Shown piece by piece: positions 12,876-49,700 of a stretch of DNA of 64,000 nt. The stretch is from NCBI GenBank assembly GCA_023078555.1, contig CM041203.1:1999481-2063480 (forward strand). The letters are read 5' to 3'. Source of the DNA: Ulva prolifera (lineage: Eukaryota > Chlorophyta > Ulvophyceae > Ulvales > Ulvaceae). A program made the position numbers and the translations under genes. A model generated the notes under the pieces. The model saw nothing but the letters and a program-made list of their open reading frames with translations. It did not search any database and was not told the origin of the DNA. Numbering within the stretch: the first letter of the stretch is position 1; each line of letters starts with the position of its first letter.

Positions 12876-15443
<2,568 letters not shown>

Positions 15444-22995: not shown

Positions 22996-23346
22996 TGTCA
23001 CAATGCATGAGCCTGCGGGCAGCAGTGTGGTGACAGGTGCACCCATGCACGGACGATCCGCGGATCCAGTGCAGGGGTAAGCCGCCAGCCGAGATTGTCT
23101 CGATGTAGTGAGAGAGATCCCGCGAGGGTTTCCCGAGCGTAACCTTGAGTGTTCAGTGTGCATATAAGCATGTGCACACTGAGATCTGTAACCATTTCTT
23201 ATCACTGTTTCACGGTACTAGCTGTATCTTGTCTCCCCTCAGCATCTCTCTGGTTCTACCTCTGTGCGCAGCAGGTATGAGATGCTGGCCTCCTGACTTG
23301 ACATAAGACTGCGCGTCTGACCTGACGAAGGATAGACTTTCTGACA
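22996..23346 (+). repeat. 5' LTR of element A
   Basis: 351 bp, starting TGTCACAATG and ending CTTTCTGACA, so the ends are short inverted repeats TGTCA/TGACA. A TATA-like TATAAG (23163-23168) lies between inverted arms 23154-23162 and 23173-23181. Confidence 0.92.
23154..23181 (+). promoter_or_regulatory. Palindrome-flanked TATA box of the copia LTR
   Basis: CAGTGTGCA, then TATAAG, then after four bases TGCACACTG. The layout recurs in the other LTRs of this family in the window. It is the likely pol II core promoter of the element. Confidence 0.6.
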
Positions 23347-23358
23347 TGGTATCGGTGA
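23347..23358 (+). other. Primer-binding site of element A
   Basis: TGGTATCGGTGA follows the LTR with no spacer. TGGTAT is the usual start of sites matching the 3' end of initiator tRNA-Met in copia elements. Confidence 0.8.
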
Positions 23359-23617
23359 ACGTTAGCGTTATGTCTGTCTATGGTCTTGTTCAGGAAGCCG
23401 TCGGCCAATGTCTGTGCGCAGACACGGCAGGCATTCCACTGTTCTGCCGGCGCTCAGACTGCGGTCAAAAGCGCAGGCATCATCTAGCTTTCTCGTAGCA
23501 CATTGTTATCAGATACAATTCGAGAAGCTTGCTTTAAATGATCAGCGCTGAGAAAAAGCGAACGCGTTCGCTTATTTTTCTCAACCTGTCGGCTCGCGAG
23601 CCGCCCCATGTGTTTAG

Positions 23618-24346
23618 TTGCTGCGCGCGACTAATCACCGTTTGTCCTACTGCAGGCTGTCCAACTCTGATCGCTCCAACTCCAACTCTCCTCGCGAGGA
23701 GAGGCGTGACGAGGCTGAGCAGCAGCCGATCGTCAACAGGGACGCTGACCAGCAGCTCCCTGACGGGGAACGGCCCGCGGGCATGTTACTCCGTGGTGGA
23801 CGAGTTGTCCGGCCACGTCCCTCTTCCCACACTGGGCAGAGCAGCCAGCAGGTGCCTTTTTCCTCTCGTGTTGTTGACGATCACGGTCACACTGAGTCAT
23901 TCATCACGCTCGAGACGTTGACCGAAGCGCTGCGTGCATCTCGGGGACGTAGCGAGCCTGATTTGACCAAAGGGAAATTGCCTGAATGGAACTTTAAGAC
24001 CGAAAGCTTCGTTGCGTACGAGCAGAAAGTCTTTTTGTGGTTAGGTCAATTCGAGTTAGACCACTTATTGCAGCACGCACCGTCTGCGGACGAACAGCGT
24101 GTCCATGCTAGGGCGAGGACACAGGTCCTAATGTCTTTGCCTGACGCGGATAGGACGACTGTCTATCGCATGTCACACCTGTGTGAAGCATGGGCCTATT
24201 TGACTGCAAAGTATAGGCCTAGCACCGAAGCCGAAATCCACAGACTGTGGAGTCGGTTCAATTCTTTATCACAACACAATAAAGATGTCGCGACATATTG
24301 TGGTGATGTGATGAGTGTATATACTCAACTGGAGGCACTAGGTGCC
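23618..24346 (+). pseudogene. Element A gag, first part, interrupted by element B
   Basis: Encodes the copia Gag head with LPEWNFKTESFVAYEQKVF and YRPSTEAEIHRLWSRFNSL. Coding stops making sense at about 24341, where element B begins. The codon matching the likely Gag start of element B is CTG here instead of ATG. Gag resumes at 30903. Confidence 0.88.
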
Positions 24347-24693
24347 TGTCAGAAAGCACTCTATCTGTCAGGTCAGACACGCAGTCTTAGGTCAGGTCAG
24401 GTAGCCAGCATTCCATACCTGCTGCGCACAGAGGTAGAACCGAGGAATGCGGGAGGAGACAGGGTACAGCTAGTACCGTGAAACAGTAAAGAGAAAGGTT
24501 ACAGCTCTTAGTGTGCACTGCAATATATGCACACTGTAAACACTCGAGGGTCACGCCGGGAAAACCCTCGCAGGATCTCTCTCGCTACCTCGATACGATC
24601 CTGGCTGGCGGCTTACCCCTGCACGTGATCCGCAGATCGTGCATGGGTGCACCTGTCACCACGCTGCTGCCCGCAGGCTCATGCATTGTGACA
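24347..24693 (-). repeat. 3' LTR of element B
   Basis: 347 bp; the minus strand runs TGTCACAATG to TCTGACA. I saw no difference from the 5' LTR at 30556-30902. The polypurine tract TATGGGGGAG precedes it on the minus strand. Confidence 0.95.
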
Positions 24694-24710
24694 CTCCCCC
24701 ATAAACCCTG

Positions 24711-27700
24711 CTAAGTCTCCACTAGCTGGAGTTTATTACGAACTTCTAACAAAGCAGGTCCGGGCAGCACTTTAGTAAACACATCCGCTAACTGATCAAC
24801 TGTGCCCACCCATGCTACCTCAAGTTCATCCATCTGGACATATTCCCGCACTCGCAAGTGCCGCACACGAATGTGCTTGGACCTGTCAGAGGACACAGCA
24901 TTTACTGCCAAGATATTGGCACTTTTATTATCACCCCACAGAGTTGGCTTATACGGGACGAGCTTTAGGTCGAGAAGCAACTGCTTCACCCACATCAGCT
25001 CGTTGGCTGTTGCACTCATCGCAATGAGCTCAGCCTCTGTTGTATCCCCTGCCACTATACTCTGTTTCTTCGAGCGCCAGAGAACACAGTTCCCATACAC
25101 TCGAAGAACCATACCAGATACACTCTTCAAATCAGCAGAGTTCGCAAAATCTGCATCAGAAAAAGCTTCTAACAGGCACCCATGCCCCACAGAGCCTACA
25201 AATTGTATTCCTAAATTCTTTGTGGACTGCAGGTATCTCAGAACGTGTTGCACAGCCAACCAATGTTCCTTCAGACTACTGGACATGTGCCGGGCCAGGG
25301 CATGTGCCACGTAGCTGAGGTCAGGTCGTGTCACTCCTGCAATGTACTGGATGCTTCCTACAGCACTCATGAACCTGGAATGCTCAGCAGCACTGGCTTT
25401 CTCCAGGTCCGGGTGCTCTTTCGCACTCCTCAGTTGTTGCCGCGGCACTAACGGAGTGGGAGACTTTCGACAATCAGACATACTATACTTTTCAAGCAGG
25501 CTATGGATTTTGTTTCGCTGTGTCATGGTGATTGTCTTGGCCTTACGATCACGCATGATTTCAGTGCCAAGTGCCCATGCTAGTTCACCCAGGTCTCTGC
25601 CTTCAAATTTTGTGAGGATTATGTCGACAAGTTCTTGCAGCCCCGCAGTGCCGCTGAATATGAACAAGTCGTCGACCCACAGAAAAATAAAACAAAGACC
25701 AGATGTTCTAACATACAGTCCGGGATCACTTTGTGCGCACACAAATCCCATCTCTGCTAAGACCTTTATTAAAGCTTTATGCCACTCGCGAGCAGCTTGC
25801 TTTAGGCCATACAGGGTTTTATGCAATCTCCATACACGTGCTGTCCCGTCAGTGAAGTACGGGGGCTGTTCAACGAACACTTCCTCCTCCAGCTCACCAT
25901 TCAGAAAAGCACACTGTATATCTATGTGTCTAATTTCTAAATCTGCCTGAGCAGCAACTGACAGCAACACACGAAGTGTCGCATAGCTCCCAACAGGTGA
26001 CCAAGTCTCAAAAAAGTCTACACCCTCTACCTGAGAAAAACCCCGCGCTACATAGCGTGCCTTGTAGCGCTGAATCTCCCCCGCAGGCCCACGCTTGATC
26101 TTGAGCACCCATTTGCCCGAGATAGCCCGTTTGCCCGCAGGCAGATAGCACAACCCGAAGGTTCCGTGCTCACCCAGTGCATCTACCTCCTCCTGCATGG
26201 CACGCAGCCATGCATCCCTGTCCGGACCCGCAAGTCCTTCCTTCATAGAAGGCATATCAGGGTCGGAGGAGGCCTTCTGCTTCCTGGCGGCAGCTGCTCG
26301 GCGCGACCCACGACGCTGAACACTCTGCTGCTCACCAGACTCCACATGCTGAGGCTTCAGGCCTGCACAGGACACTCCACAGTCAGCCGCGGCTGATGTG
26401 TCCTGGCTACAAGCTGAAACTTCAATAGCAGCAACAACTGTTTCACTACTAGCATTAGAGCCCGCAGGCTCATTCATATGCACAGCTGCTACATCCGCAG
26501 CCAATGGAACAAGGCGTCTGCGTACAAGAGGATTGATTTTTATGCGGGGCAAGGCGGCTGGAATGGCCCTCACCTCGTCAGGCAAATCAACCCCGACAGC
26601 GGCTGAGGGGTCCGGGCCCTCTCCCCCTAATTCGGACCCGGTCTCCACCTCATCTGGCTCATCCTCCCAGAAGGGCCTCGGCGCCTCTGCTCCTCGCAGG
26701 GGCGGAGCAACTGCCCCCGCGCCAGATGCTGAGGCCGCAGCCGAATTACTCCCTGAGCGGACCCGCTGAGCCTCCAGATTCTGATGAGCCGCAGCTCTTT
26801 CATCATCTGAGACGGTGTAGTCCATGCGTTGTTCGTCATCGTCGTCATAGACGCCAGGACCATCACTGTCCATGTCGTCGTCCGATTCACTCGCAGACAC
26901 AGGAACGGGGAACGCAACGTCTACACCTGGGTCGTGCAATGCAGCAGCACGTGTGGGCACATAACGAGTTGTGCGCGAGGGACCAGCCTCCAAATGACGC
27001 AGTTCACCACGTGCACGGGGAGGGGGGATGACGTCAGGATGGGCTGCAGCCCTGGACATCGCACGCGTGCGATGCAGAGCAGCTTTGGCCATTTCCGGTG
27101 TGTCCCGAGCAGGGTCACGCCGAATTATCTCCGCAGAGTCGCCATACCCAAGCCGAGGTGAATATGCCGTGGGGTTTGGCTCCGGGTTGTCTTGCCGGAA
27201 CGTCATGTCCATGACAGGAACCCTACCGTGCCCAGGGGGGGTGTGGAGCTGGTCACGCAGACGGCGCAGCACTCCCCCATCATATGTGTGGTCAGACAGG
27301 AAATCAGGAACATCGCTGTCTGTCACACGTTCACCCTCGTTATCCCCCTCAAAGACAACCTTATAGGAGTTCGCAAACTCCGCAGGCTCTCTTTTGTCCA
27401 CAACGGCGGACGCATCGTACTTTCGTACGTGGCGGATCATCTGATCCGCAGTGCACATGACCTGGCGCACAACAAACACCCTACCCCCAGGAACATCCTG
27501 GGCGTACACACGCTGCATGCTGGGGCCCAGCCCAGCCCCGACCCAATGTGCCAACACACCCCTAGGGGACAACTTCCGCAGCTTGTCATCCCTGGGATAT
27601 GCATACACCTCAACCCCCCATGGACGCTGCTGCTGCAGCAAATCCTGGAACACCTCAACGGAGGTGTCCCTGAAAAAAGACATATAAGGAATTATATCCT

Positions 27701-30341
27701 TATCACACGACCGCACTAGAAACTCATCTAACTCAGTACTTGCAAGTAATTTATACTTGCGTTGCTCCTCCTCTTTCAACTTGTCGCGCTCGGCCTTTTT
27801 CATGCGCTTTCCCTGACCCTTTTCAGCCTCAGCCACGTCCGCCGCAGCGTTTATGGCCATCTGAGCTTTCTGGGATTTCAGGATACGTGCCAGCTTGTCA
27901 TGGTACAGCGCCGAACACGGCGTCAGATTGTGACCATGGACAACACTGGCAAGGCATTCAATCCACAGGAACAGAGGGAGGCCACTCGCAAGCAGCACAG
28001 CACGGAGTGCCTCAAAGGCGACTCCTATCCTCCGCTCGATCATGCCATTACAGCGATGATCAGCTGTGGGGGTAGTGCGGTGAGTGATGCCGCGACGTTG
28101 GAGGTAGAGCTTTAAGGCCTCGACCATAAACTCGCCCCCTTTGTCAGTGTGAAGGATGCGCACACCCGGTTCACCTGGCTTCACCACATTTACCCTAATG
28201 CGCTCTATGATATAAGAGATCATGGCCGCAGCCTCACTCTTTTTGCGCAGACCGACCACGAAAGTATAACGAGTAAAAGCACACATCACAAACAAGACAT
28301 ATTTCACACCTCCAATTCCTACTGGAGTGACAGGACCAGCTAGATCGGCATGCAGTTGCTCGCCAGGGTATTTCGCCTGGCCCATGAGCTCACGGTCATT
28401 GGCAGAGAATTTACCCGCAGGTACTTTGCCAATTCTGCAGCCATGACATCTATTTCCGAAAGGTTCGGAATCGACACTCAAATTCAAACTACCATAAAAC
28501 TCAGCGTTCGACTGCATACGCTTGAGCACCCAGTTCGATTGGTGAAAGGACAAATGCGCGATAAAAGCAGGGTTCAGCAAATACGCATCATGTGGGACCT
28601 CGGCCCCCCCAGCATTGGGGCGCACAAGATCAACAGCCGCAACTGCCACATGATGCCATTGTTGCTGGTCCGCGACCATGCAGGTCGGACTGCTCTGGTT
28701 AGACCAGACCACCCCCCTATTGACAGGCCCACCGACGAGAATGGGCTTAGTTTCCACAGCCATTTTGAACGCAAACACAGGGTGACCATCAACATCTAGT
28801 TCCTGACATTTGACGTCATCCTCTACGTCGGTGGCCATGTCACCAAGACCCGGGACATACAACACATTTCTACGCGTGTCTAGGAACATTTGTTCGTGTC
28901 TAAGACACATTGTACTAAGCAGGTTATACGGACATTCAGGAGCATAGTATACACCAGGGATCTCGACATCTAACGGATGGGTTTGACCATGCTTATCCAC
29001 GTAAGTACCCAGGTTCACCAAAATGGTTCCCCTGCCCATGATAGAAAGCTGCCCAGGTCCCGCGAGATTGGCAACTTTCTGACACGGACCGTACTCAGTG
29101 AACATTTCACGATTCCCTACTATGTGCATGTCCGACCCACTGTCTACAATAATGTTCCATGGCAGAGACGCGTCAGGCATTGGATATTGCTCAGGCATCT
29201 CAACCGCACACACATCTTTGGCCGCAGCCTGTTTGCGTTGGGGGCAGTTCGCACGCAAATGTCCCTTCTTCTTGCAGAAGAAACAGGTCCTGGTCTCCTC
29301 GCGAGGAGCCTGGCCAGCCCCAAGAGCGGCGACCACAGGACCATCACCACGGGGTTGCTTTCGCCAGCCTTGGCCAGGTTTGCCCGCGGGCGCCCCAGAC
29401 CTAGCCTGCAGCTGCCGCTGTTGCTTCAGCAAATCGGCGTGTTCGGTCAAACGTGAAATTATGACATGAGGGGAGGAGTGAAGAACTTCGCCGCGCACGG
29501 CATTGAACTCCTCCCCCACCTCTAACAGTTTGAGTCTGAGCCATCGCTGGCCCACATCGGCACCTAGTGCCTCCAGTTGAGTGTACACACTCATAACATC
29601 ACCACAATAAGATGCGACATCTCTATTGTTCTGTGACAAGGAATTGAACCGGCTCCACAGCCTGTGGATCTCGGCTTCGGTGCTGGGCCTATACTTGGCA
29701 GTAAGGTAGGCCCAGGCCTCGCACAAATGCGACATTCGATAGACAGTCGTTCTATCAGCGTCGGGCAAAGACATAAGGACCTGTGTCCTCGCCCTAGCAT
29801 GAACACGCTGTTCGTCCGCAGACGGTGCGTGCTGCAACAGATGGTCTAGCTCGTATTGCCCTAACCACAAAAAGACTTTCTGTTCGTACGCAACGAAACT
29901 TTCGGTCTTATGATTCCACTCAGGCAGTTTTCCCTTTGTCAAATCAGGCTCGTTACGTCCCCGAGACGCTCGCAGCGCTTCGGTCAACGTTTCAAGCGTG
30001 ATAAACGACTCAGCGTGACTTGAATCATTCACGACATGAGAAGGATTGGGCACCTGCTGACTGCTGTGCCCAGTCTGAGCGGAAGAGCGTGGCCGGACCA
30101 CTCGTCCATCACGGAGCAGCATGCCCTCGGGCTGCTCTCCATCAGGGAGCTGCTGGTGAGCGCCCCTGTCGACGATAGGCTGCTGATCAGCCTCGCCGCG
30201 AATCTCCTCGCGAGAAGAGTTTGAAGCTGAGCGGTTGGATTGAGACATCCTACAGTAGAACAGGCGGTTGTGCGTCGCGCGCAGCAACGAAGCAAAGGTT
30301 TGGCTCGCAAGCCGTCGGATTGGAAAAATAAACGAACGCAT
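24711..30341 (-). CDS. Copia Gag-Pol polyprotein, intact
   Basis: 1,876 codons from ATG 30341-30339 to TAG 24711-24713; a second in-frame ATG at 30248-30246 (residue 32) is the better match to the Gag start of related copies. Domains in order: Gag; CCHC zinc knuckle CFFCKKKGHLRANC (about 352-365); aspartic protease IIVDSGSD (about 397-404); integrase HHCC (about 595-640) and catalytic core with LHADLAGP (about 662) and HTDKGGEF (about 733); a Ser/Asp-rich spacer; reverse transcriptase with KARYVARGFSQ (about 1427) and LWVDDLF (about 1553); RNase H with SDADF (about 1729), TTEAEL (about 1767) and DNKSAN (about 1802). Integrase before reverse transcriptase defines Ty1/copia. The catalytic box is WVDD, not the common Y(V/I)DD. 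No frameshift or internal stop was found. Gag and Pol share one frame, so no recoding site is needed. Confidence 0.96.
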   Translation of the reverse strand: MRSFIFPIRRLASQTFASLLRATHNRLFYCRMSQSNRSASNSSREEIRGEADQQPIVDRGAHQQLPDGEQPEGMLLRDGRVVRPRSSAQTGHSSQQVPNPSHVVNDSSHAESFITLETLTEALRASRGRNEPDLTKGKLPEWNHKTESFVAYEQKVFLWLGQYELDHLLQHAPSADEQRVHARARTQVLMSLPDADRTTVYRMSHLCEAWAYLTAKYRPSTEAEIHRLWSRFNSLSQNNRDVASYCGDVMSVYTQLEALGADVGQRWLRLKLLEVGEEFNAVRGEVLHSSPHVIISRLTEHADLLKQQRQLQARSGAPAGKPGQGWRKQPRGDGPVVAALGAGQAPREETRTCFFCKKKGHLRANCPQRKQAAAKDVCAVEMPEQYPMPDASLPWNIIVDSGSDMHIVGNREMFTEYGPCQKVANLAGPGQLSIMGRGTILVNLGTYVDKHGQTHPLDVEIPGVYYAPECPYNLLSTMCLRHEQMFLDTRRNVLYVPGLGDMATDVEDDVKCQELDVDGHPVFAFKMAVETKPILVGGPVNRGVVWSNQSSPTCMVADQQQWHHVAVAAVDLVRPNAGGAEVPHDAYLLNPAFIAHLSFHQSNWVLKRMQSNAEFYGSLNLSVDSEPFGNRCHGCRIGKVPAGKFSANDRELMGQAKYPGEQLHADLAGPVTPVGIGGVKYVLFVMCAFTRYTFVVGLRKKSEAAAMISYIIERIRVNVVKPGEPGVRILHTDKGGEFMVEALKLYLQRRGITHRTTPTADHRCNGMIERRIGVAFEALRAVLLASGLPLFLWIECLASVVHGHNLTPCSALYHDKLARILKSQKAQMAINAAADVAEAEKGQGKRMKKAERDKLKEEEQRKYKLLASTELDEFLVRSCDKDIIPYMSFFRDTSVEVFQDLLQQQRPWGVEVYAYPRDDKLRKLSPRGVLAHWVGAGLGPSMQRVYAQDVPGGRVFVVRQVMCTADQMIRHVRKYDASAVVDKREPAEFANSYKVVFEGDNEGERVTDSDVPDFLSDHTYDGGVLRRLRDQLHTPPGHGRVPVMDMTFRQDNPEPNPTAYSPRLGYGDSAEIIRRDPARDTPEMAKAALHRTRAMSRAAAHPDVIPPPRARGELRHLEAGPSRTTRYVPTRAAALHDPGVDVAFPVPVSASESDDDMDSDGPGVYDDDDEQRMDYTVSDDERAAAHQNLEAQRVRSGSNSAAASASGAGAVAPPLRGAEAPRPFWEDEPDEVETGSELGGEGPDPSAAVGVDLPDEVRAIPAALPRIKINPLVRRRLVPLAADVAAVHMNEPAGSNASSETVVAAIEVSACSQDTSAAADCGVSCAGLKPQHVESGEQQSVQRRGSRRAAAARKQKASSDPDMPSMKEGLAGPDRDAWLRAMQEEVDALGEHGTFGLCYLPAGKRAISGKWVLKIKRGPAGEIQRYKARYVARGFSQVEGVDFFETWSPVGSYATLRVLLSVAAQADLEIRHIDIQCAFLNGELEEEVFVEQPPYFTDGTARVWRLHKTLYGLKQAAREWHKALIKVLAEMGFVCAQSDPGLYVRTSGLCFIFLWVDDLFIFSGTAGLQELVDIILTKFEGRDLGELAWALGTEIMRDRKAKTITMTQRNKIHSLLEKYSMSDCRKSPTPLVPRQQLRSAKEHPDLEKASAAEHSRFMSAVGSIQYIAGVTRPDLSYVAHALARHMSSSLKEHWLAVQHVLRYLQSTKNLGIQFVGSVGHGCLLEAFSDADFANSADLKSVSGMVLRVYGNCVLWRSKKQSIVAGDTTEAELIAMSATANELMWVKQLLLDLKLVPYKPTLWGDNKSANILAVNAVSSDRSKHIRVRHLRVREYVQMDELEVAWVGTVDQLADVFTKVLPGPALLEVRNKLQLVET

Positions 30342-30543
30342 TCGCTTTTCTTGGCGCTAATCATTTGAAACAGCTGCTCGAATTGTATCTGATAACAATA
30401 TGCCACGAGACAGCTAATGATATCTGCGCTTATTGACCGCAGTCTAAGCGCCGACAGAACAGTGGAATGCCCCGCCGAGTCTGCGCACAGACATTGGCCG
30501 ATGACTTCCTGAACAAGACCATACAAAGACATAACGTAAACGA

Positions 30544-30555
30544 TCACCGATACCA
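30544..30555 (-). other. Primer-binding site of element B
   Basis: The minus strand reads TGGTATCGGTGA immediately inside the 5' LTR, identical to that of element A. Confidence 0.85.
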
Positions 30556-30902
30556 TGTCAGAAAGCACTCTATCTGTCAGGTCAGACACGCAGTCTTAGG
30601 TCAGGTCAGGTAGCCAGCATTCCATACCTGCTGCGCACAGAGGTAGAACCGAGGAATGCGGGAGGAGACAGGGTACAGCTAGTACCGTGAAACAGTAAAG
30701 AGAAAGGTTACAGCTCTTAGTGTGCACTGCAATATATGCACACTGTAAACACTCGAGGGTCACGCCGGGAAAACCCTCGCAGGATCTCTCTCGCTACCTC
30801 GATACGATCCTGGCTGGCGGCTTACCCCTGCACGTGATCCGCAGATCGTGCATGGGTGCACCTGTCACCACGCTGCTGCCCGCAGGCTCATGCATTGTGA
30901 CA
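30556..30902 (-). repeat. 5' LTR of element B
   Basis: 347 bp, apparently identical to 24347-24693. The target duplication GTGCC follows at 30903-30907. Confidence 0.95.
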
Positions 30903-33701
30903 GTGCCGATGTGGGCCAGCGATGGCTTCGTTTGAAACTGTTAGAAGTGGGGGAGGAGTTCAACGCTGTGCGCGGCGAAGTCCAACACTCCTCCCCTCAT
31001 GTGATCATATCGCGTTTGACTGAGCATGCTGACTTGCTCAAATCACAGCGACAGCTGCAGGCTAGGTCTGGGGCGCCCGCGGGCAAACCAGGCCATGGCT
31101 GGCGCAAGCAACCCCGTGGTGATGGTCCTGTGGTCGCTGCTCTCGCAGCCGGCCAGGCTCCTCGCGAGGAGACCAGGACATGTTTCTTCTGCAAGAAGAA
31201 AGGACATTTGCGTGCGAACTGCCCCCAACGCAAACAGGCTGCGGCCAAGGATGTTTGTGCTGTAGAGATGCCTGAAAAGTATCCGCAACCAGACGCGTCT
31301 CTGCCTTGGAATATTATTGTTGATAGTGGTTCGGACATTCACATCGTAGGCAATCGTGAAATGTTTACTGAGTACGGCCCATGCCAGAGGACTGCCAATC
31401 CCGCGGGACCAGGCAAGCTCCCTATCATGGGAAGGGGAACCATCCAGGTGAACCTGGGTACTTATGTTGACAAGCATGGGAACAAGCATCCATTAGATAT
31501 GGAAATCCCTGGTGTTTACTATGCGCCTGAATGTCCGTACAATCTGCTTAGCACAATGGGTCTTAGGCATGAGCAGATATTTTTGGACACGCGTAGGAAT
31601 GTGTTGTATATTCCTGGTTTGGGTGATATGGCTACTGATATCGAGGACGGTGTCAAATATCAGGAGCTAGATGTAGATGGTCATCCTGTTTTTGCGTTCA
31701 AAATGGAGGTAGACACTAAGCCCATTCTTGTCGGTGCCCCAGTCAACAGGGGAGTAGTCTGGTCTAACCAGAGCAGTCCGACCTGCGTGGTCGAGGACCA
31801 GGGGCAGTGGCATCATGTGGCGGCTGCGGCCATTGACCTGCAGCGACCCAATACTGGGGGAGCTGAGGTCCCACATGACGATTACCTGCTTGATCCTGCT
31901 TTCATAGCGCATTTGTCATTTCATCAGTCAAATTGGGTTCTCAAGCGCATGCAATCCAACGCTGATTTTTATGGTCATTTGAATTTAAGTGTCGATTCCG
32001 AGCCGCTGGGAAATCGGTGTCACGGCTGCAGAATTGGCAAAGTGCCTGCGGGTAACTTCTCTGCCAATGATCGTGAGCTCATGGGCCAGGCCAAGTGGCC
32101 TGGTGAGCAACTGCACGCCGATTTAGCTGGTCCTGTCACTCCAGTGGGAATTGGAGGCGTGAAATATGCTTTGTTCGTGATGTGTGCCTTTACCCGCTAT
32201 ACTTTCGTGGTCGGTCTACGCAAAAAGAGTGAGGCTGCGGCCATGATCTCTTATATTATTGAACGCATTCGGGTGAATGTGGTGAAGCGAGGTGAACCGG
32301 GTGTGCGCATCCTACACACCGAAAAAGGGGGAGAGTTCATGGTTGAGGCCTTAAAACTCTACCTCCAGCGTCGCGGCATCACTCACCGCTTAACCCCACA
32401 GCTGATCATCGTTGTAATGGCATGATCGAGCGGAGAATCGGAATATCTTTTGAGTCACTCCGTGCAGTGCTGCTTGCGAGTGGCCTGCCTTTGTTCCTGT
32501 GGATAGAATGTCTCGCCAGTGTTGTACATGGCCACAATCTAACGCCGTGCTCGGCGTTGTACCATGACAAACTGGCGCTCATTCTAAAGTCCCAGAAAGC
32601 TCAGCATGCCATCAACGCTGCGGCAGATGTGGCTGAAGCTGAAAAGGGCACAAAGCGCATGAAAAAGGCCGAGCGCGATAAGTTGAGGGATGAGGAAAAA
32701 CGCAAGTACAAGTTTCTTGCGTCGACAGAGTTAGACGAGTTTTTAGTGAGGTCTTGTGACAAGGATATCATTCCTTACATGTCCTTTTTCCGGGACACCT
32801 CCGTTGAGGTGTTCCAAGATCTGCTGTGGCAGCAGCGTCCGTGGGGGGTTGAGGTGTATGCATACCCTAGGGATGACAAGCTGCGGAAGTTGTCCCCCCG
32901 GGGTGTGCCTGCATACTGGGTCGGGGCTAGTCTGGGCCCCAGCATGCAGCGTGTGTACGCCCAGGATGTTCCTGGTGGTAGGGTTTTTGTTGTGCGTCAG
33001 GTCATGTGCACTGCGGATCAGATGATCCGGCACGTACGCAAGTACGATGCGTCCGCCGTTGTGGACAAAAGGGAACCTGAGGAGTTTGCGAACTCCTACA
33101 CGGTTGCCTTCGAGGGGGACGATGAGGGTGAGCGTGTGACTGATGCTGATGTCCCTCCTTTCGCGGCAGAGCACACGTATGATGGGGGAGTGTTGCGCCG
33201 TCTGCGTGACCAGCTTCACACCCCCCCTGGTCATGGTAGGGTTCCTGTCATGGAAATGACATTCCGGCAGGACAACCCTGAGCCCAGTCCCGCTGTGTAC
33301 TCTCCACGATTTGGAGCTGGCTCCTCTGCAAAGATTATCCGACGTGACCCTGCTAGGGCAACACCGGAAATAGCCAGGGCAGCTTTGCATTGCACGCGTG
33401 CAATGTCCAGAGCTGCTGCTCACCCCGACGTCCCTGTCCCCCATCGTGTGCGCGGCGAAGTGCATCACTCTGTCGCCACGCCCTCCCGTACTGCGCAGTA
33501 TGTTGTCACGCGCAACGCTGTGTTGCACGACCCTGGTGTAGAAGTTGCGTTCCCCGTTCACGTGTCTGTCAGTGCGTCTGATGACGACATGGAGGAGGAT
33601 GACGACAGTCCTGGCATCTATGATGACGACGATGAACAGCGCATGGACTACACCGTCTCAGATGATGAAAGAGCTGCGGCTCATCAAAATCTGGAGGCTC
33701 A
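30903..33701 (+). pseudogene. Element A gag-protease-integrase remainder, frameshifted
   Basis: Resumes Gag after B with DVGQRWLRLKLLEVGEEFN, then the zinc knuckle, protease DSGSD and integrase. Near 32390-32396 the run ACCCCCAC of sister copies is ACCCCAC, one C short. The first frame ends at 32423-32425, and the true frame resumes at 32422 (MIERRIG). An integrase-core position reads HTEKGGEF instead of HTDKGGEF, losing a catalytic Asp. The copy breaks off at HQNLEA near 33700. Confidence 0.9.
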
Positions 33702-33713
33702 TGCATTGTGACA
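33695..33713 (-). repeat. LTR terminal stub at a deletion junction
   Basis: AGGCTCATGCATTGTGACA is the last 19 bases of a minus-oriented LTR. Its first seven bases, AGGCTCA, are also present in the element A coding sequence, so the join falls in a 7-bp microhomology. Confidence 0.88.
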
Positions 33714-36700
33714 GTGGCATCATGTGGCGGTCGCGGCCATTGACCTGAAGCGACCCAATGTTGGGGGAGCTGAGGTCCCATATGATGCATACTTGCTGGA
33801 ACCTGCTTTTCTAGCACACTTGTCTTTTCATCAGTCTAATTGGGTTCTAAAGCGCATGCAGTCTAACAGTGAATTTTATGGTCATTTGAATTTGGATGTT
33901 GATTCCGAGCCACTGGGGAATCGGGGTCACGGCTGCAGAATTGGCAAAGTGCCTGCGGGTAACTTCTCTGCCAATGATCGTGAGCTCATGGGTCAGGCCA
34001 AGTGGCCTGGTGAGCAACTGCATGCCGATTTAGCTGGTCCTGTCTCTCCAGTAGGAATTGGTGGTGTGAAATATGTTTTGTTTGTGATGTGTGCCTTTAC
34101 CCGCTATACTTTCGTGGTCGGTCTGCGCAAAAAGAGTGAGGCTGCGGCCATGATCTCTTATATCATTGAACGCATTCGGGTGAATGTGGTGAAGCCAGGT
34201 GAACCGGGTGTGCGCATCCTACACACCGACAAAGGGGGAGAGTTCATGGTCGCGGCCTTAAAACTCTACCTCCAGCGTCGTGGCATTACTCACCGCTTGA
34301 CCCCCACAGCCGCTCATCGCTGTAATGGCATGATCGAGAGGAGGATCGGAGTGGCCTTTGAGTCACTCCGTGCTGTGCTGCTCGCGAGCGGCCTGCCTCT
34401 GTTCCTGTGGATAGAATGCCTCGCCAGTGTTGTCCATGGTCACAATCTCACGCCGTCGTCGGCATTGTACCATGACAAACTGGCAAGCATCCTCAAGGGC
34501 CTGAAAGCTCAGCATGCTGTCAATGCGTCTGCGGACGTTGACGAAGCTGAGAAGAGCCTGGGGAAGGGACAGCGCATGAAAAAGGCCGAGCGCGATAAGT
34601 TGAGGGATGAGGAGAAACGCAAGTACAAGTTACTTGCGACGACAGAATTAGATGAGTTTTTAGTGCGGTCTTGTGATAAGGATATCATTCCTTACATGGC
34701 CTTTTTCAGAGACACCTCCGTTGAGGTGTTCCACGATCTGCTGCGGCAGCAGCGTCCGTGGGGGGTTGAGGTGTATGCATACCCCAGGGATGACAAGCTG
34801 CGGAAATTGTCCCCCCGGGGTGTGCCTGCATACTGGGTCGGGGCTGGGTTAGGCCCCAGCATGCAGCGTGTGTACGCCCAGGATGTTCCTGGGGGTAGGG
34901 TTTTTGTTGTGCGTCAAGTGATGTGCACTGCGGATCAGATGATCCGGCACGTACGCAAGTACGATGCGTCCGCCGTTGTGGACAAGAGAGAACCTGAGGA
35001 GTTTGCGAACTCCTACACGGTTGCTTTCGAGGGGGACAATGAGGGTGAGCGTGTGACTGATGCCGATGTCCCTCCTTTTGCGGCAGAGCACACGTATGAT
35101 GGGGGAGTGTTGCGCCGTCTGCGTGACCAGCTTCACACCCCCCCAGGTCATGGCAGGGTTCCTGTCATGGAAATGACTTTCCGGCAGGACAACCCTGAGC
35201 CCAGTCCTGCTGTGTACTCTCCACGATTTGGAGCTGGCTCCTCTGCGGAGATTATCCGACGTGACCCTGCTAGGGCAACGCCGGAAATAGCCAGAGCAGC
35301 TTTGCATCGCACGCGTGCAATGTCCAGAGCTGCTGCTCACCCTGACGTCCTTGTCCCCCACCGTGTGCGCGGCGAAGTGCATCACTCTGTCGCCACGCCC
35401 TCCCGTACTGCGCAGTATGTTGTGACGCGCAACGCTGTGTTGCACGACCCTGGTGTAGAAGTTGCGTTCCCTGTTCAAGTGTCTGTCAGTGCGTCTGATG
35501 ATGACATGGATGAGGACGACGAGAGTCCTGGCATCTATGATGACGATGATGAACAGCGCATGGACTACACCGTCTCAGATGATGAAAGGGCTGCGGCTCA
35601 TCAGAATCTGGAGGCTCAGCGGGTCCGTTCCGGGAGTAATTCGGCAGCGGCCTCAGCATCTGGCGCGGGGGCAGTTGCTCAGCCCTTGCGAGGAGCTGAG
35701 GCGCCGAGGCCCTTCTGGGAGGATGAGCCAGATGAGGTGGAGACCGGATCCGAATTAGGGGGAGAGGATCCGGACCCCTCAGCCGCAGTTGGGGTTGATT
35801 TGCCTGACGAGGTGAGGGCCATTCCAGCCGCCTTGCCTCGTATTAAAATCAATCCTCTTGTACGCAGACGCCTTGTTCCATTGGCTGCGGATGTAGCAGC
35901 TGTACAAATGCATGAGCCTGCGGGCTCTGACATTGCTAGTAGTGAAACAGTTGTAGCTGCTATTGAAGTTTCAGCTTGCGATCAGGACACATCAGCCGCG
36001 GCTGACTGTGGAGTGTCCTGTGCAGGCTTGAAGCCTCAGCATGTGGAGTCTGGCGAGCAGCAGAATGCTCAGCGTCGTGGGTCGCGCAGAGCAGCTGCCG
36101 CCAGGAAGCAGAAGCCTTCTGACCCTGATCTGCCTTCTATGAAGGAAGGACTCGCGGGTCCGGACAAGGATGCATGGCTGCGTGCCATGCAGGAGGAGGT
36201 GGACGCACTGGGTGAGCACGGGACATTTATGTTGTGCTATCTGCCTGCGGGTAAGAAAGCTATCTCGGGCAAGTGGGTGTTCAAGATTAAGCGCGGACCC
36301 GCTGGTGGGATTCAGCGGTACAAGGCACGATATGTAGCTCGTGGTTTTTCTCAGGTAGAAGGAGTAGATTTCTTCGAGACATGGTCTCCTGTAGGTAGTT
36401 ATGCGACACTGCGTGTGTTGCTGTCTATAGCTGCTCAGGAGGATCTGGAGATAAGGCATATAGATATACAGTGTGCTTTTCTGAACGGTGACCTGGAGGA
36501 AGAGGTTTTCGTTGAACAGCCCCCGTATTTTACAGACGGGACAGCACGTGTATGGAAATTGCATAAGACTCTGTATGGCCTGAAGCAAGCCGCTCGCGAG
36601 TGGCATAAAGCTTTAGTAAAGGTCTTGGCTGAACTGGGATTTGTGTGCGCACAGAGTGATCCCGGACTGTATGTCAGTAAAACCAATCGCTGCTTTATTT

Positions 36701-37691
36701 TTCTGTGGGTGGATGATTTGTTCATTTTCAGTTGCTCTGCGGGGCTGCAAGAAATCATCAGTGTCATTCTCACGAAATTTGAAGGTAGAGACTTAGGTGA
36801 CCTGTCTTGGGCACTTGGCACTGAGATCACGCGTGATCGAAAGGCCAAAACAATCACAATGACACAACGTAACAAAATCCAGAACTTGCTGGAAAAGCAC
36901 AGCATGTCTGATTGTCGTAAATCTCCCACTCCATTAGTGCCGCGGCAACAGCTGAGGAGTGCGAAAGAGCATCCTGACCTGGAAAAAGCCAGTGCTGCTG
37001 AGCATTCCAGGTTCATGAGTGCTGTAGGAAGTATCCAGTATATTGCAGGAGTGACACGACCTGACCTGAGTTATGTGGCACATGCCCTGGCCCGGCACAT
37101 GTCTAGTAGTCTGAAGGAACATTGGTCTGCCGTGCAACATGTTCTGAGATACCTACAGTCCACAAAGAACTTAGGAATAAAATTTGTAGGCTCTAAGGGA
37201 CACGGGTGTTTGTTAGAGGCTTATTCAGATGCAGATTTCGCGAACTCTGCCGATCTGAAAAGCGTGTCTGGTATGATTATTCGGGTGTATGGGAACTGTG
37301 TTCTCTGGCGTTCGAAGAAGCAGGGTATAGTGGCTGGGGATACAACAGAGGCTGAACTCATCGCGATGAGTGCAACAGCCAACGAGTTAATGTGGGTGAA
37401 GCAATTGCTTCTCGATCTGAAACTCGTCCCACACAAGCCCACTCTGTGGGGTGACAATAAGAGTGCCAATATCTTGGCTGTGAATGCTGTGTCCACTGAC
37501 AGATCCAAGCACATTCGTGTGCGGCACTTGCGGGTGCGGGAATATGTCCAGATGGATGAACTTAAGGTAGCATGGGTAGGCACTGTTGATCAGTTAGCGG
37601 ATGTGTTTACTAAAGTGCTGCCCGGACCTGCTTTGTTAGAAGGTCGTAATAAACTCCAGCTAGTGGAGACGTAGCAGGGTTTATGGGGGAG
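33714..37691 (+). pseudogene. Element X, right half: integrase, reverse transcriptase, RNase H
   Basis: It opens with the target duplication GTGGC (33714-33718) and continues without a stop from 33724 to TAG 37672-37674. It encodes the integrase HHCC region, HTDKGGEF, the spacer, reverse transcriptase (LWVDDLF) and RNase H (YSDADF, TTEAEL, DNKSAN). The polypurine tract TATGGGGGAG (37682-37691) abuts an LTR. It lacks Gag and protease, which lie inverted at 38041-39944. The enzyme domains are intact in frame but have no start of their own. Confidence 0.92.
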
Positions 37692-38040
37692 TGTCACAAT
37701 GCATGAGCCTGCGGGCAGCAGTGTGGTGACAGGTGCACCCATGCACGAACGATCCGCGGATCCTGTGTAGGGGTAAGCCGCTAGCTAGGATTGTCTCGAT
37801 GTAGTGAGAGAGATCGTGCGAGGGTTTCCCGCCGTAACCTTGAGTGTTCAGTGTGCATATAAGCACGTGCACACTGAGATCTGTAACCATTCTCTTTACT
37901 GTTTCCCGGTACTAGCACTCCCCTTTCAGCATCTCTCGGTTCTACCTCTGTGCGCAGCAGGTATGAGATGCTGGCTGCCCTGACCTGACCTGAACGAGGA
38001 CTGCGCGTCCGCCCCTGCACAAATGATAGCTTTTCTGACA
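37692..38040 (+). repeat. LTR of element X, probably a recombinant
   Basis: 349 bp from TGTCACAATG to TTTTCTGACA in plus orientation. On its left is the X polypurine tract, as for a 3' LTR. On its right is GCCAC, the complement of the GTGGC duplication at 33714, followed by the inverted left half of X. One LTR with these two neighbours is what recombination between two inverted LTRs produces. Confidence 0.88.
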
Positions 38041-39944
38041 GCCACTGCTGTTGATCCTCAATGACTGAGGTCGGACTGCTCTGGTTAGACCAGACTACCC
38101 CCCTATTGACAGGCGCACCGACGAGAATGGGTTTGGTATCTACTGCCATTTTAAATGCAAAGACAGGGTGACCATCCACATCTAGTTCCTGATATTTGAC
38201 GTCATCTTCTACGTCGGTAGCCATATCACCCAGACCAGGAACATACAACACATTTCTACGCGTGTCTAGGAACATCTGTTCATGTCTAAGACCCATCGTG
38301 CTGAGCAGGTTGTACGGACATTCAGGAGCATAGTAAACACCAGGGATTTCCACATCCAGTGGATGCTTGTTCCCATGCTTGTCCACATAAGCACCCAGGT
38401 TCACCTGAATGGTTCCCCTGCCCATGATAGAAAGCTGCCCTGGTCCCGCGAGATTGGCAACTTTCTGACACGGACCGTACTCAGTGAACATTTCACGATT
38501 TCCTACTATATGCATGTCCGACCCACTATCAACAATGATGTTCCACGGAAGGGACGCGTCCGGCTGTGGATACTTGTCAGGCATTTCTACAGTGCAAACA
38601 TCCTTGGCCGCAGCCTGTTTGCGTTGGGGGCAGTTCGCACGCAAGTGTCCCTTCTTCTTGCAGAAGAAACAGGTCCTCGTCTCCTCGCGAGGAGCCTGGC
38701 CGGCTGCGAGAGCAGCGACCACAGGGCCATCACCACGGTGCTGCTTGCGCCAGCCATGGCCTGGTTTGCCCGCGGGCGCCCCAGACCTAGCCTGCAGCGA
38801 CCGCTGTTGTTTGAGCAAATCAGCATGCTCGGTTAAACGTGATATTATCACATGAGGGGAGGAGTGTTGAACTTCGCCGCGCACAGCGTTGAACTCCTCC
38901 CCCACCTCTAACAGTTTCAAACGTAGCCATCGCTGGCCCACATCGGCACCTAGTGCCTCCAGTTGAGTGTAAACACTCATCACATCACCACAATATGTCG
39001 CAACATCTTTATTGTTTTGTGACAAAGAATTAAACCGACTCCACAGTCTGTGGATTTCGGCTTCGGTGCTAGGTCTGTACTTGGCAGTCAAGTAAGACCA
39101 TGCTTCATACAAGTGTGACATGCGATAGACAGTCGTCCTATCCGCGTCAGGCAACGACATTAGGACCTGTGTCCTTGCCCTAGCATGAACACGCTGTTCG
39201 TCCGCAGACGGTGCGTGCTGCAACAAATGATTTAACTCAAATTGACCTAACCACAAAAAGACTTTCTGTTCGTACGCAACGAAACTTTCAGTCTTAAAAT
39301 TCCATTCAGGCAATTTCCCTTTGGTCAAATCAGGCTCGCTACGTCCCCGAGATGCACGCAGCGCTTCGGTCAACGTCTCGAGCGTGATGAATGACTCAGT
39401 GTGACCGTGAGCGTCAACAACATGACAGGAAAAAGGCACCTGCTGGCTGCTCTGCCCAGTATGGGAAGAGGGTCGTGGCCGGACAATTCGTCCGCCCCGG
39501 AGCAACATACCCGCAGGCTGTTCTCCGTCAGGGAGCTGCTGGTCAGCGTCCCTGTCGACGAGTGGCTACTGGTCAGCATCGTCACGCCTCTCCTCGCGAG
39601 GAGAGTTGGCGTTTGAGTTGGCATTGGAGAGAGACATCCTGCATTAGGACAGACGGTTGTTTGTTGCGCGCAGCAACTAACCGATGGGATTGCTCGCAAG
39701 CAGACAGGTTGAGAAAAATAAACGAACGCGTTCGCTTTTTCTCAGCGCTGATCATTAAAACAAGCTTCTCGAATTGTGTCTAACAACAATATACTACGAG
39801 AAAGCTAAATGATGCCTGCGCTTTTGACCGCTGTCTGAGCGCCGGCAGAACAGTGGAATGCCCGCCGTGTCTGCGCACAGACATTGGCCGACGGCTTCCT
39901 GAACAAGACCATATACAGACGTAACGCTAACATCACCGATACCA
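38041..39944 (-). pseudogene. Element X, left half inverted: gag, protease, integrase start
   Basis: On the minus strand, ATG 39637-39635 starts Gag (MSLSNANSNANSPREE). A stop TAG at 39566-39568 replaces a sense codon of sister copies. The frame then stays open through the zinc knuckle CFFCKKKGHLRANC, protease DSGSD and SPTSVIEDQQQW, and ends at 38041, exactly where the right half begins in the other orientation (W followed by HHVAVAA). Both halves therefore come from one element. Confidence 0.9.
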
Positions 39945-40290
39945 TGTCAGAAAAGCTTAAGTTGTGCAGGTTGGACGCGCAGTCCTTATGCAGGTCAGGT
40001 CAGGACAGCCAGCATCTCATACCTGCTGCGCACAGAGGTAGAACCGAGAGATGCTGAAAGGGAGTGCTAGTACCGGGAAACAGTAAAGAGAATGGTTACA
40101 GATCTCAGTGTGCACAAGCTTATATGCACACTGAACACTCAAGGTTACGGCGGGAAACCCTCGCGGGATCTCTCTCACTACATCGAGACAATCTCGGCTG
40201 GCGGCTTACCCCTGCACTGGATCCGCGGATCGTCCGTGCATGGATGCACCTGTCACCACACTGCTGCCCGCAGGCTCATGCATTGTGACA
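39945..40290 (-). repeat. 5' LTR of element X
   Basis: 346 bp, minus orientation, with the primer-binding site TGGTATCGGTGA just inside it (39933-39944). It differs at many sites from element B's LTRs but resembles the LTR at 37692-38040. ACCGG follows at 40291. Confidence 0.92.
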
Positions 40291-40868
40291 ACCGGTCGAT
40301 GCTTTGTTTTTCTGTGGGTAGATGACTTATTCATTTTCAGTTGCTCCGCGGGGCTGCAGGAAATCATCAGTGTCATTCTCACAAAATTTGAAGGTAGAGA
40401 CCTAGGTGACCTGTCCTGGGCACTTGGCACTGAGATCACGCGTGATCGAAAGGCCAAAACAATCACAATGACACAACGCACCAAAATCCAGAACCTGCTG
40501 GACAAGTACAGTATGTGTCTGACTGTCGTAAATCTCCCACTCCCTTAGTGCCGCGGCAACAGCTAAGGAGTGTGAAAGAGCATCCTGACCTGGAGAAAGC
40601 CAGTGCTGCTAAGCATTCCAGGTTCATGAGTGCTGTAGGGAGCATCCAGTATATTGCAGGAGTGACACGACCTGACCTGAGCCATGTGGCACATGCCCTG
40701 GCCCGGCACATGTCTAGTAGTCTGAAGGAACATTGGTCTGCCGTGCAACATGTTCTGAGATACCTGCAGTCCACGAAGAATTTAGGAATGAAATTTGTAG
40801 GCTCTGAGGGACATGGGTGTTTACTAGAGGCTTTTTCATATGCAGACTTTGCGAATTTTGCAGATCTT
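40291..40868 (+). pseudogene. Element E: decayed copia reverse transcriptase/RNase H fragment
   Basis: Starts inside the reverse transcriptase (RCFVFLWVDDLFIFS) and ends within RNase H (SYADFANFADL) at about 40868. A two-base insertion near 40511-40518 shifts the frame (ATGTGTCTGAC against ATGTCTGA in X). The first RNase H catalytic Asp is Tyr (SYADF). Both flanks are cut, by the LTR of X on the left and by LINE sequence on the right. It is probably the old copy into which X inserted. Confidence 0.9.
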
Positions 40869-40878
40869 TCGGAGGGGG

Positions 40879-42498
40879 TCACATACGCGACCGGACACAT
40901 TCGCGGGACACATCACGTATCATCAAATAACTTTTAAACGCCTGCGAATCAGGACAAATTATCGATGCAGCGATACTTGAATTATGATCATATGTGTAGT
41001 TGCTGCTTCGTTCAGGCATTTTGCAACTTTTTTGTTTCTCGACGTCAGTCCACTGAACACGGCCTTTGCTGCCTTGATCATTGAGCCCACAGGCAGAAGG
41101 CCCGCGTCGGAAAAAGAATCTCCTCCCTGCAATCACACTGCTGCAGACCAAACACCATGCGGATTGCCTTTTACAGATGGTATCAAGTTTGTCAGCTTCA
41201 GTTTTCGGGCCAATCCAGATCTCAGCCCCATACACAGCAAGAGTATATATGAACGCATAAACAAGGCGGAGCCGGGCGGTCACCGGGAGGTAGTGGCAAC
41301 GCAGCACTGGCCGCCACGCGCCAAGTGCCTTGTTCATCTTTGCGCGTACATGATGCATATGTTCAGACCAAGAGCCATTCGACTGAAAGAAAACACCCAG
41401 GTATTTGTAGTTGTGATCCTTCTCCAACTGCGACCCCCGCAGTTGGAAGACAACTGGTGCGCCACCCCGCGGCTGATTGAACACCATAGTTTTTTACTTT
41501 GACAACACATTTGGTAAGGAGCGCCATTGAAACAACCATTGATCGATTGTATCAATGTGTCCCTAGAGCCGTGCCGGTGTCAAGGACATTTCGTTGACAT
41601 CATCTGCATAAGTGAGTCCGGAAATTTTATCGGTGTCTGGTGAGTCCAGGGGAATGCAGAGTTGTTTTGGACGGGTGTGCAGTGTTTCAAGCAGATCATC
41701 AATGAACACATCAAAGAGAATGGTTGACAGGGGGTCGCCTTGGCCGACCCCGAGGGTGATGGGGAAGTATGGTGATTCCTGGTCTTGGAAGCGCACCCTT
41801 GATTTCGTGTTCGAGAGCATGTGTGCGATGACCCGACCGAGGCGGCCTGTCACTCCTTTCTGGAGCAGTTTGTACAACAAACCGTCGCGCCACACAGTAT
41901 CGTATGCTTTCCGGATGTCCAAGAAGGAAGCATAAAGTGGAGTGTCCGCCGCGGCAGCCGCCCGGACAATGCGTGCAAAGGTGTGGACATGGTCTACGCA
42001 GCCGCGATCCTCGCGGAATGCGGCTTGAGACCCATGGAGGGTTATATTGTTTTGGAGGCGGGACCTGAGCAGTGTGCTAAAAAGCTTCCGGAGTATTGAA
42101 AGCAGTGTGATACCCCGGTAGTTGGAGGGGTCTGTTGCATCCCCGGCTTTGTGGAGGCTTACAATTGTTCCAAGTGACCATGCATTGGGAATGGTTTCGT
42201 GCGTCCAGCAGAAATTGATGAGCTGCAGGACGATGGTTTGCAATTGCGGCCCTCCGGCCTTCAGTAGTTCGCAGATGATACCATCGTGGTCTGCGGCTTT
42301 CCAGTTGTGCATTGTAGCAAGTGCTTGTTGAAGTTCGTGAAGTGTGAAGGCATCATCCATCTCTTGGTTGTGTTCAGGCTCATTTTGGCGCCATGCGTGC
42401 AATGTGTCTCTGACATGTGCATCACTTTCCTCGCAGAATGTGGCATGTGGGAGCTTAATCGGCTGCGCCACATGGCTTGTGTGTGTTACAAGGATCAA
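40879..42498 (-). pseudogene. LINE (non-LTR) reverse transcriptase remnant
   Basis: Minus frame 41563-42498 encodes an RVT_1 reverse transcriptase: WKAADHDGIICELLK, SNYRGITLLSILRKL, ASFLDIRKAYDTVWRDG, VGQGDPLS and the catalytic LTYADDV. After a frame break at 41487-41563 the C-terminal part continues (YKYLGVFFQSNGSWSEHM, IYTLAVYGAEIW) to a stop near 40879. No apurinic endonuclease domain is visible upstream, so it is 5' truncated and frameshifted. No poly-A tail or target duplication was seen. Confidence 0.88.
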
Positions 42499-42507
42499 GG
42501 TGGCGAG

Positions 42508-42602
42508 GTGTCATGAATTCCGTCGAAACTAGGTTAAAGCTAGTCAAAGCACTCAACTGTGCAGCGAGAGCTACTCGCACCTCTAACACCTAGTTTGTTA
42601 CA
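42508..42602 (+). repeat. Solo mini-LTR of the TRIM family
   Basis: 95 bp from TGTCATGAATTCC to CTAGTTTGTTACA, matching the two LTRs of the TRIM at 44267-44563. It is flanked by CGAGG on the left and TGAGG on the right, a 4/5 match consistent with an aged 5-bp duplication. No second copy or primer site is adjacent, so it is a solo LTR. Confidence 0.85.
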
Positions 42603-45974: not shown

Positions 45975-46723
<749 letters not shown>

Positions 46724-49700
46724 TCATGCATTCGTAGCTATCCTTGCATGGCAAAGCGAGCAAATGCGCAGCCGCTTCGTGTCAACAGTTTCTAGCAGCA
46801 TGTCATGGCGACACCTGCGACACCGCAGGACAGATTCAAGGCCACCCCCCTGAACACTTTTAACAACACGGCCACTTGCAACACAAACTGTGTCTTTTTC
46901 GCTGCTCAGACCATCTAGCAGGTGTGATGCTGCATCGCCAGCTTGCATATGTTGCGCTTCGCAGATGTCACCAGGATCCTGCAGCCGCACAGGATGACAG
47001 GCTCAGTGTGTGTCAGCTAAGTCATGCGCTCGGATCACATGACACATGGCACTGACACAAAATGAGCACCTCAGGCAAATGCTCCATGAAAACTGAAGAT
47101 GCCAGCGACGCAACGTTCTCCTTCTGGAGCACGGACAGGCCAGGTATAGACTCCAGCTTCATGAATGCTTTGCTTGCAATTCCGAAATGACCTGTACAGA
47201 GGGCTACCAAAGCTAGCATCGAAAATACATCAAAAGCATCCAGAGCATCTATGTATCTCCGAGTGTTCAAGGCTGTCCGAAGTGCTGCGTGATACTCTCC
47301 GGCTTGCACTTGGGCTTGAGCTAATGTCCAGAAGTGATGTGCTTCTGCTCCACGCCATGCCCGATCCATCCCCTCGTCCTTCTGCAACACGTAGGACTGC
47401 TTCAACATGCGTAAGATGTTGATGAGAGTAAGAAAGATACAGATTCTGGTGTTGAATGTGTTGCTGACATGTGGTAGCCTTGTCGATACTGCAGCTTCTG
47501 CAGTGCATGCCTGCACACCTTAGCATCAAGCGAGTCACGCGTCACAAGGCCCTGCAAAGTGTTCCGTGCATGTGTGACTGTACTCATCGTGTTGCCTGCT
47601 GCAAACCCTCCACCAAGAAGAGTCAACCCGTGTGATGCCGCAAGCTCTTTCTCGTTTATATTTCGCGCTTTCTCCACCTCAAGGGCTGCTAGAACATACA
47701 GCTGCTTGATGCGGACTGGCCGCATATGAAGTTCCTGGATGTGCCCTTTCTGTATTTCCGCTTCATATTGCCCGTAATGTGAAGAGAACTGGCTTCATGG
47801 ACACAAGCAAGCGGCGCACGATTGCTTCTTTGGCAAGTTCAGCCAGTGCGGATGCTGACAAATGATGCTGCGCTGCAGATTTGTACAGGTTGACCTCATC
47901 CACACGGCGCCCGTGCTTTTGCAGGTCTGACATCCTGCTGTTCAACAGATTGTCTATCTGAATTCCATATTCCTGAGCAATTCGGACTCCGAGTGCCCAG
48001 TTATTGAATTGTGCACAGCAGTCTATTGCTTTTTGCACCATTCCGGCCTGCACAATGCTAGAGCTGTGATCAATACGAATTCCACAGCACCTGCAGTTCA
48101 GACAACATCGTGTTTCGGATGATACACCTTGACGTAGCTGGTGCAGGCTTCTGTGCACATGCCTACCGACTGGTAGCTTTGTGCCAGGAATTTGTGAACT
48201 TCACATTTGTCTGTGCAGTGTGTCTGCAAGTCAGTAAGCTTTTCATAGTCACCCAGCCGAAAAAGGCATTCAGCAACTTGCTCTGTCTGCTTGCATTGTA
48301 CAAAGTGCATGGCAGCTTTCTTCCACTGTCGCTTGTCCATATACATGTATCCAAGCTGTCGTTGTGCGCGCTGTATGAGCTCATCTGTTACCATAGCATG
48401 CCCGTGGCTTGCGTTCTCGACTCCATACCCCGCCTTGACAGATGGCAAGCGCATCCTGTCCTTATGCTCCTATAGAGCAGAGCGTTTCTATGACGAGCCT
48501 CACACATCAATCAGCATAATAATATTGATGAAAGCTGCCCGCATCTGTACCTTTAAAAGTGCTTCCACCCGAGACCACAACCCTAAACGCATGAAGAGTT
48601 GCAATGCTAAGTCCAATCTTCCATGTTCTTGATAACATGTTGTAGACTTCCCATGATCCCCAAAATAAGCAGCTATCTCCGCATCCTGCGTTCTTTGATC
48701 ATGCAGACGCTCCACCTATAACCTGTCCATGCTCATTGATGCTTTCAAACTCATCGCATCCAGACCAGAACGTACCTGTTTTGCATACTGAATCCTGTTG
48801 TAGTCGTTGAGACGAACAAAAGCTTTGATTGCCTGCTGAAAGTCTCTGCTGATCAAAGCATGGTCACCCAGCATTGTCCACAGACGTTTATGCGGGCATC
48901 TCTCCACAAATCCAAAGGCATCCTCAAAGCTGGTCTGGAGGTAATTTTCGGTGTCCTTGAGAACTTGCGATTGAACCTTATGGAGCAACTCTTTTGCTGG
49001 TTCCTGTACAGACAGGGGCTGCGGTCGCTGCTGCAAGTCACCAACACGAACAATCAAGAGCCGTACATCGTATGAATTTGAGAACGCATGGGTCCAGACC
49101 CACCTGAACTTTGGCCTGCAGCGATATCGCATCTAGCATTGACACCTCAAGGTTCCCAAATGCCAGAAGATAGTCATTTGTCCGAACTGGGTCCTCAGCT
49201 TCTGTTCCATGTATTACCAACATCTTGGATTTTTCCATGACCGCCAGTGAACTTGGATCATCTGAAGCCCACAGAACATCCCAGACGTCTGTTCTACAAG
49301 GTTCACATGCTGTTTCATCATCCACCACTGAAGTCAGCTGCATGTTTCCCTGCGCGCTGGGACAGGTGATAATCCAACATTAGTGAATTAGCAGGAATGC
49401 AAGCACATGATCTGCTGCCACTCTCTGTGCTCCAGATCTCTACCAACTATGTGTACGGACGTGCACACCTGCAGGTCAATAATTGCTACCTGCGTGGCAT
49501 CACAATTGAGCCACATTCTGCAAACGGATTGTGAAAGCTTCTTGCTGCTCTGGAGCTGCATGTCAGGCAATGAAACTCTGGACAAGGCAGTGCTTCCAGT
49601 AGAATACTCTTGGGCTACCAGAACGAAACGGTCACACGCACAGATAGCCTGTATTTCTCCTGAACCCAGACAGAACTCTACTGGCCATTTTTCTGGCAAA

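Follow-up and report, generated by a model that had tools for sequence, protein, structure and literature searches.

A copia element of Ulva prolifera split into two inverted parts: a probable trace of nested insertion, inversion and deletion

A copia-type element of Ulva prolifera is split into two parts that lie in opposite orientation on either side of a long terminal repeat (LTR), and both broken ends carry the same 5 bases, read inverted in the second case. The best account of this arrangement, and in our judgement probably the right one, is a nested insertion followed by an ectopic inversion and then by a deletion. The locus belongs to the window, i.e. the whole analysed stretch of 64,000 nucleotides (contig CM041203.1), taken from an assembly of 88.9 Mb in 44 contigs, the largest being 12.7 Mb long. 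Sequence comparison and profile matches within the window reveal a single copia family piled up across positions 22996-40867 (Table 1). Hereafter the split element is denoted X and its putative guest Y.

Table 1. Features of the copia pile, in window positions
Feature	Position	Strand	Remarks
Element A: 5' LTR (22996-23346) and initial 1 kb of the internal region	22996-24346	+	
Element B, intact, nested in A	24347-30902	-	LTRs identical (347/347); duplication GTGCC
Element A: internal region continued as far as the deletion joint	30903-33701	+	
Microhomology AGGCTCA, 7 bases, where A meets the inverted LTR (deletion joint)	33695-33701	.	
Inverted LTR remnant: terminal 12 bases (LTR 5' end)	33702-33713	-	Sole guest remnant on the left side
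Target duplication GTGGC, copy 1	33714-33718	+	
Split element, 3' part: integrase and RVT_2 matches	33714-37691	+	Reaches the purine-rich stretch before the LTR
LTR H	37692-38040	+	Left: usual purine-rich flank; right: inverted target
Target duplication GCCAC (inverted GTGGC), copy 2	38041-38045	-	
Split element, 5' part: gag and Pol_BBD matches	38041-39944	-	
LTR X5, the 5' LTR of the split element	39945-40290	-	
Element A: pol region, continuing beyond a gap of about 1.06 kb	40291-40867	+	Truncated at 40867

In Ty1/copia elements gag and integrase precede the reverse transcriptase (RVT_2), and an LTR lies on either side. In element B the Pfam matches follow the order Retrotran_gag_2, Pol_BBD, rve, RVT_2, and the same set is divided over the two parts of the split element. 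Element B, a very recent insertion, has an open gag-pol frame of 1881 aa with gag, integrase and RVT_2 matches, those to gag and integrase (rve) being slightly under the curated cut-offs. The 3' part of the split element has an open frame of 1320 aa, with rve again slightly under the cut-off; in the 5' part the gag match is above the cut-off, and a stop near the start of the gag frame breaks that frame. The truncated end of A adjoins an RVT_1 reverse-transcriptase fragment (41563-42510, minus strand), which probably comes from a non-LTR element. Elsewhere in the window, two open frames (49635-51338, minus strand) match WDR35, a ciliary transport protein, through beta-propeller models, which suggests a ciliated host, and long dinucleotide arrays, AC and TG, occupy 14532-14664 and 45976-46175.

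At the left joint, the start of an inverted LTR, ...TGCATTGTGACA, with its last base at 33713, is followed by GTGGC at 33714 and leads into HHVAVAA. At the right joint, the LTR end ...CTTTTCTGACA (38040) is followed by GCCAC at 38041 and then by an opposite-strand frame ending in EDQQQW. Both junctions had been described in these terms by an earlier sequence-only reading, and both are present. The two parts are complementary pieces of the internal region, and each broken end adjoins a family LTR terminus; as in a nested insertion, the interrupted sequence resumes past a short target duplication, the second part being inverted here.

That reading also held that the halves, aligned to element B, would abut except for 5 bp. 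As element B reads ATGGC at the homologous site, compared with GTGGC at the split locus, closer relatives provide a cleaner test. The overlap was exactly 5 bases in all 11 loci with abutting parts (the window excluded), these being loci among the matches listed by both part searches and counted by hand from a comparison of the two listings. The same overlap was observed in five of the loci fetched for closer analysis (L014, L022, L024, L025 and L056), of which L014 is also among the 11. Thus, the expected abutment is borne out on family relatives, and the overlap equals the duplication length of the family (see below). When the genome was searched for the pattern of a TGACA terminus on each of the two target flanks, allowing at most 2 mismatches, the split locus matched exactly at both joints; the one other exact match, confined to the right joint, belongs to a different guest, located on C7.

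Ty1/copia elements duplicate 5 bases of the target, and their LTRs end in TG...CA. Identical 5-base flanks in 14 fetched loci and in element B set the duplication length of this family at 5, and in the fetched loci its LTRs mostly run TGTCA...TGACA. One more locus, L015, has matching flanks once its LTR end is moved outwards by 3 bases (read by eye); its LTRs differ by 2 substitutions, and it stands outside the 15 matched LTR pairs considered below. The fetched loci were picked by similarity to H, to X5 or to either part, and hence form a non-random sample; in each genome search the best approximately 40 of 404-1035 first-look candidates were scored, and the LTR comparisons cover 18 fetched two-LTR elements and 84 distinct LTRs. 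Same-family nesting is common among the fetched loci: 27 of the 104 tested LTR flanks match internal sequence of the family, a count that includes the right flank of H itself and one flank at L002, the latter being a deletion joint and no nest. Recombination between LTRs and between elements also occurs in the family, as seen from solo LTRs with a duplication (17 of the 84 distinct LTRs) and from chimeric elements. Three of the 18 two-LTR elements (L019, L024 and L030) are without matching duplications and have diverged LTRs, with 42, 29 and 14 differences, respectively; they are probably chimeras of two insertions. At L069 (about C3:10740179) we observed a head-on inversion within family sequence, its joint being without an LTR.

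Between H and X5 we counted 20 substitutions and 3 gap events, compared with 0-8 substitutions in each of the 15 LTR pairs with matching duplications (a row of L061, 638 with 7817, 9 substitutions, was left out of this count, the LTRs coming from two different elements). In a larger alignment the number of substitutions between H and X5 is 22, distributed by segment as 1/47, 11/133, 2/109 and 8/57. Among 18 elements only 4 positions are private, three to H and one to X5, and so the difference is mostly standing variation of the family rather than age. H and X5 are not the LTR pair of one element; therefore H looks like the LTR of Y, nearly whole. The sequence-only reading spoke of one element split in two, which is too simple, as H is not the partner of X5. 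The mismatch has a practical side too: dating from this apparent LTR pair would start from about 6% divergence and give a badly inflated age, because H and X5 belong to different insertions.

Under the preferred history, X would have inserted, inverted, into A. Element Y, of the same family and opposite to X in orientation, would have entered X with GTGGC as its target, so that these 5 bases were duplicated. Inverted repeats would then be present, formed by the 3' part of Y (the end of pol and the 3' LTR) and its counterpart in X, and recombination between them would flip the intervening segment, setting the 3' LTR of Y, i.e. H, behind the pol region of X, where it faces the 5' half of X in inverted orientation. 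A later deletion, mediated by microhomology, would have taken away the outer LTR, the body of Y and about 1 kb of A, and just 12-19 bases would be left of the 5' LTR of Y. The surviving pieces have the order and orientation that such a history predicts, and divergence between H and X5 would be expected because H would belong to Y. At the deletion joint, the 7 bases of microhomology fit both sides, a relative of A running GGAGGCTCAGCGGG and the inverted LTR running GCAGGCTCATGCATTGTGACA, which suggests a deletion mediated by microhomology; the two pieces of A are separated by a loss of about 1.06 kb. The body of Y is absent from the locus, and we infer Y from one terminus and a foreign LTR, along with the crossover and the order of events.

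The sequence-only reading had likewise proposed an insertion of Y into X, an inversion and the loss of most of Y. This fits the anatomy and the recombination seen in the family, but the crossover that it placed inside H was not found: within LTR 37692-38040 there is no switch from X-like to Y-like sequence, as H differs from X5, and is foreign, on each side of a shared middle. If there was a crossover, it fell in the first approximately 56 bases of H or in the homologous pol region upstream, which is eleven times longer than the LTR. In the pol region the nearest relative often switches between adjacent 250-base windows, and no crossover could be located there. With the crossover at either place, the right end of 33714-37691, the supposed 3' half of X, may derive from the guest Y.

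An alternative is that one site was hit twice, independently. A plus-strand element Z would nest in the minus-strand X at GCCAC, a minus-strand element W would nest in Z at the homologous GTGGC, and a deletion would finally remove everything leftward, with no inversion necessary. We regard this as unlikely, although it does account for H and X5 being unpaired. If targeting were even over the internal region (about 5.9 kb), such a coincidence would occur approximately once in 5,900 cases by our own estimate. In the fetched loci the nested sites range over internal positions 364-5815, and no other nest lies at position 1900, the nearest being at 1876-1880. No same-family insertion hot spot at the split site was found among the listed matches of the searches with the junctions, in the pattern searches or in the fetched loci. 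On the other hand, at C7:4481089-4488012 (L010, L076) a guest sits at exactly the same 5-base site of another family copy, flanked left and right by GCCAC. Its LTR stretches show no difference (161/161), and its ends have no match in the window (blastn, E 1e-3); a weak gag match (E = 1e-4, under the curated cut-off) suggests that it may be copia-like. The site may thus be favoured, and the presence of this guest, unrelated at the nucleotide level, weakens the argument from the shared site in favour of the preferred history. A similarly shaped candidate at C5:2125100 (L044) is explained better by a nested insertion, since the other side of its host was located leftward of the guest, the two being separated by about 1.5 kb of unassigned sequence.

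If the two parts come from one element, they should share ancestry across the split. In this test, for which there was too little linkage for a firm answer, r was 0.54 at 200 bases, a value attained by 10% of different-element pairs; r was 0.20 at 400 bases and 0.39 at 800 bases, each attained by 42% of different-element pairs and each under 80% of the same-element values. The outcome thus leaned towards a single element at 200 bases; at the two greater lengths it did not, in which respect it agrees with two independent hits. Private mutations do not distinguish the parts: we counted 11/1904 in the 5' part and 9/1989 in each half of the 3' part. Element B stayed outside the panel for the nearest-relative, ancestry and private-mutation tests, the site not being located in it.

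We give still less credence to a captured autointegration product. Both ends of one cDNA would attack its own interior, creating a 5-base duplication, and the resulting inverted two-LTR circle would re-enter the genome by recombining homologously with a copy already resident in A. The derived order of such a circle (LTR start / GTGGC, 3' part, LTR / GCCAC, 5' part, LTR) is the observed one, no second element Y is necessary, and the LTR termini do abut a single internal site in inverted order, a short duplication being present. However, LTRs made from one cDNA are identical at birth and stay nearly so unless they are old, and such a product needs both LTRs from one cDNA, whereas H and X5 differ in source and are far from near-identical. 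For the explanation to hold, X5 and the sequence around it would have to stem from the resident copy, with the crossover placed within the 5' half, since H and X5 differ at their U5 ends as well. Hence, due to the mismatch of H and X5, a simple captured autointegration product is disfavoured. In passages of their texts, PMC4751563 names inverted two-LTR circles and PMC2644782 inversion circles as autointegration products. The abstract of PMC4751563, which deals with Ty circles, describes circle junctions without signs of autointegration, and one mosaic read in the same source is compatible with the other kind of product, the truncated circle. If autointegration did operate here, the locus would be a chromosomal fossil of a reaction described, as far as these passages of PMC4751563 and PMC2644782 go, for extrachromosomal circles only.

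Finally, two copies of this large family could have been misjoined at an LTR during assembly, as might happen with 404-1035 first-look candidates per search, but this is very improbable, as both joints coincide exactly with LTR termini and share the same 5 bases, a reciprocal duplication is not expected from a misjoin inside repeats, and the genome is assembled in 44 contigs of up to 12.7 Mb.

The nested insertion with inversion and deletion, as preferred here, has parallels in several known systems. Nested Ty1/copia elements with solo LTRs and chimeras are similar in their 5-base duplications, nesting, LTR recombination and inner LTR borders; to these our locus adds the inversion, through which the parts face each other with an LTR between them. 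Ectopic recombination between transposable-element copies in inverted orientation, as a source of inversions, is discussed in PMC12368964, and the substrate, inverted copies of the same family, is alike; compared with the inversions treated there, the present one spans a few kilobases, lies within one retroelement nest and retains integration scars at the inverted joint. The autointegration circles of retroviruses and Ty1, as described in the passages of PMC4751563 and PMC2644782 referred to above, resemble the locus in the derived order of LTR, duplication and inverted halves, but they are extrachromosomal and have both LTRs from one cDNA, whereas the LTRs of the split locus are unpaired. No printed description of the same structure was found among the papers listed in literature searches, judged by titles or the beginnings of abstracts.

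The mechanism is ordinary, consisting of known processes, and its trace is well preserved. A nest of an active family can rearrange in place, with the integration scars staying readable, and the locus is a clear but ordinary record of repeats rearranging a genome.
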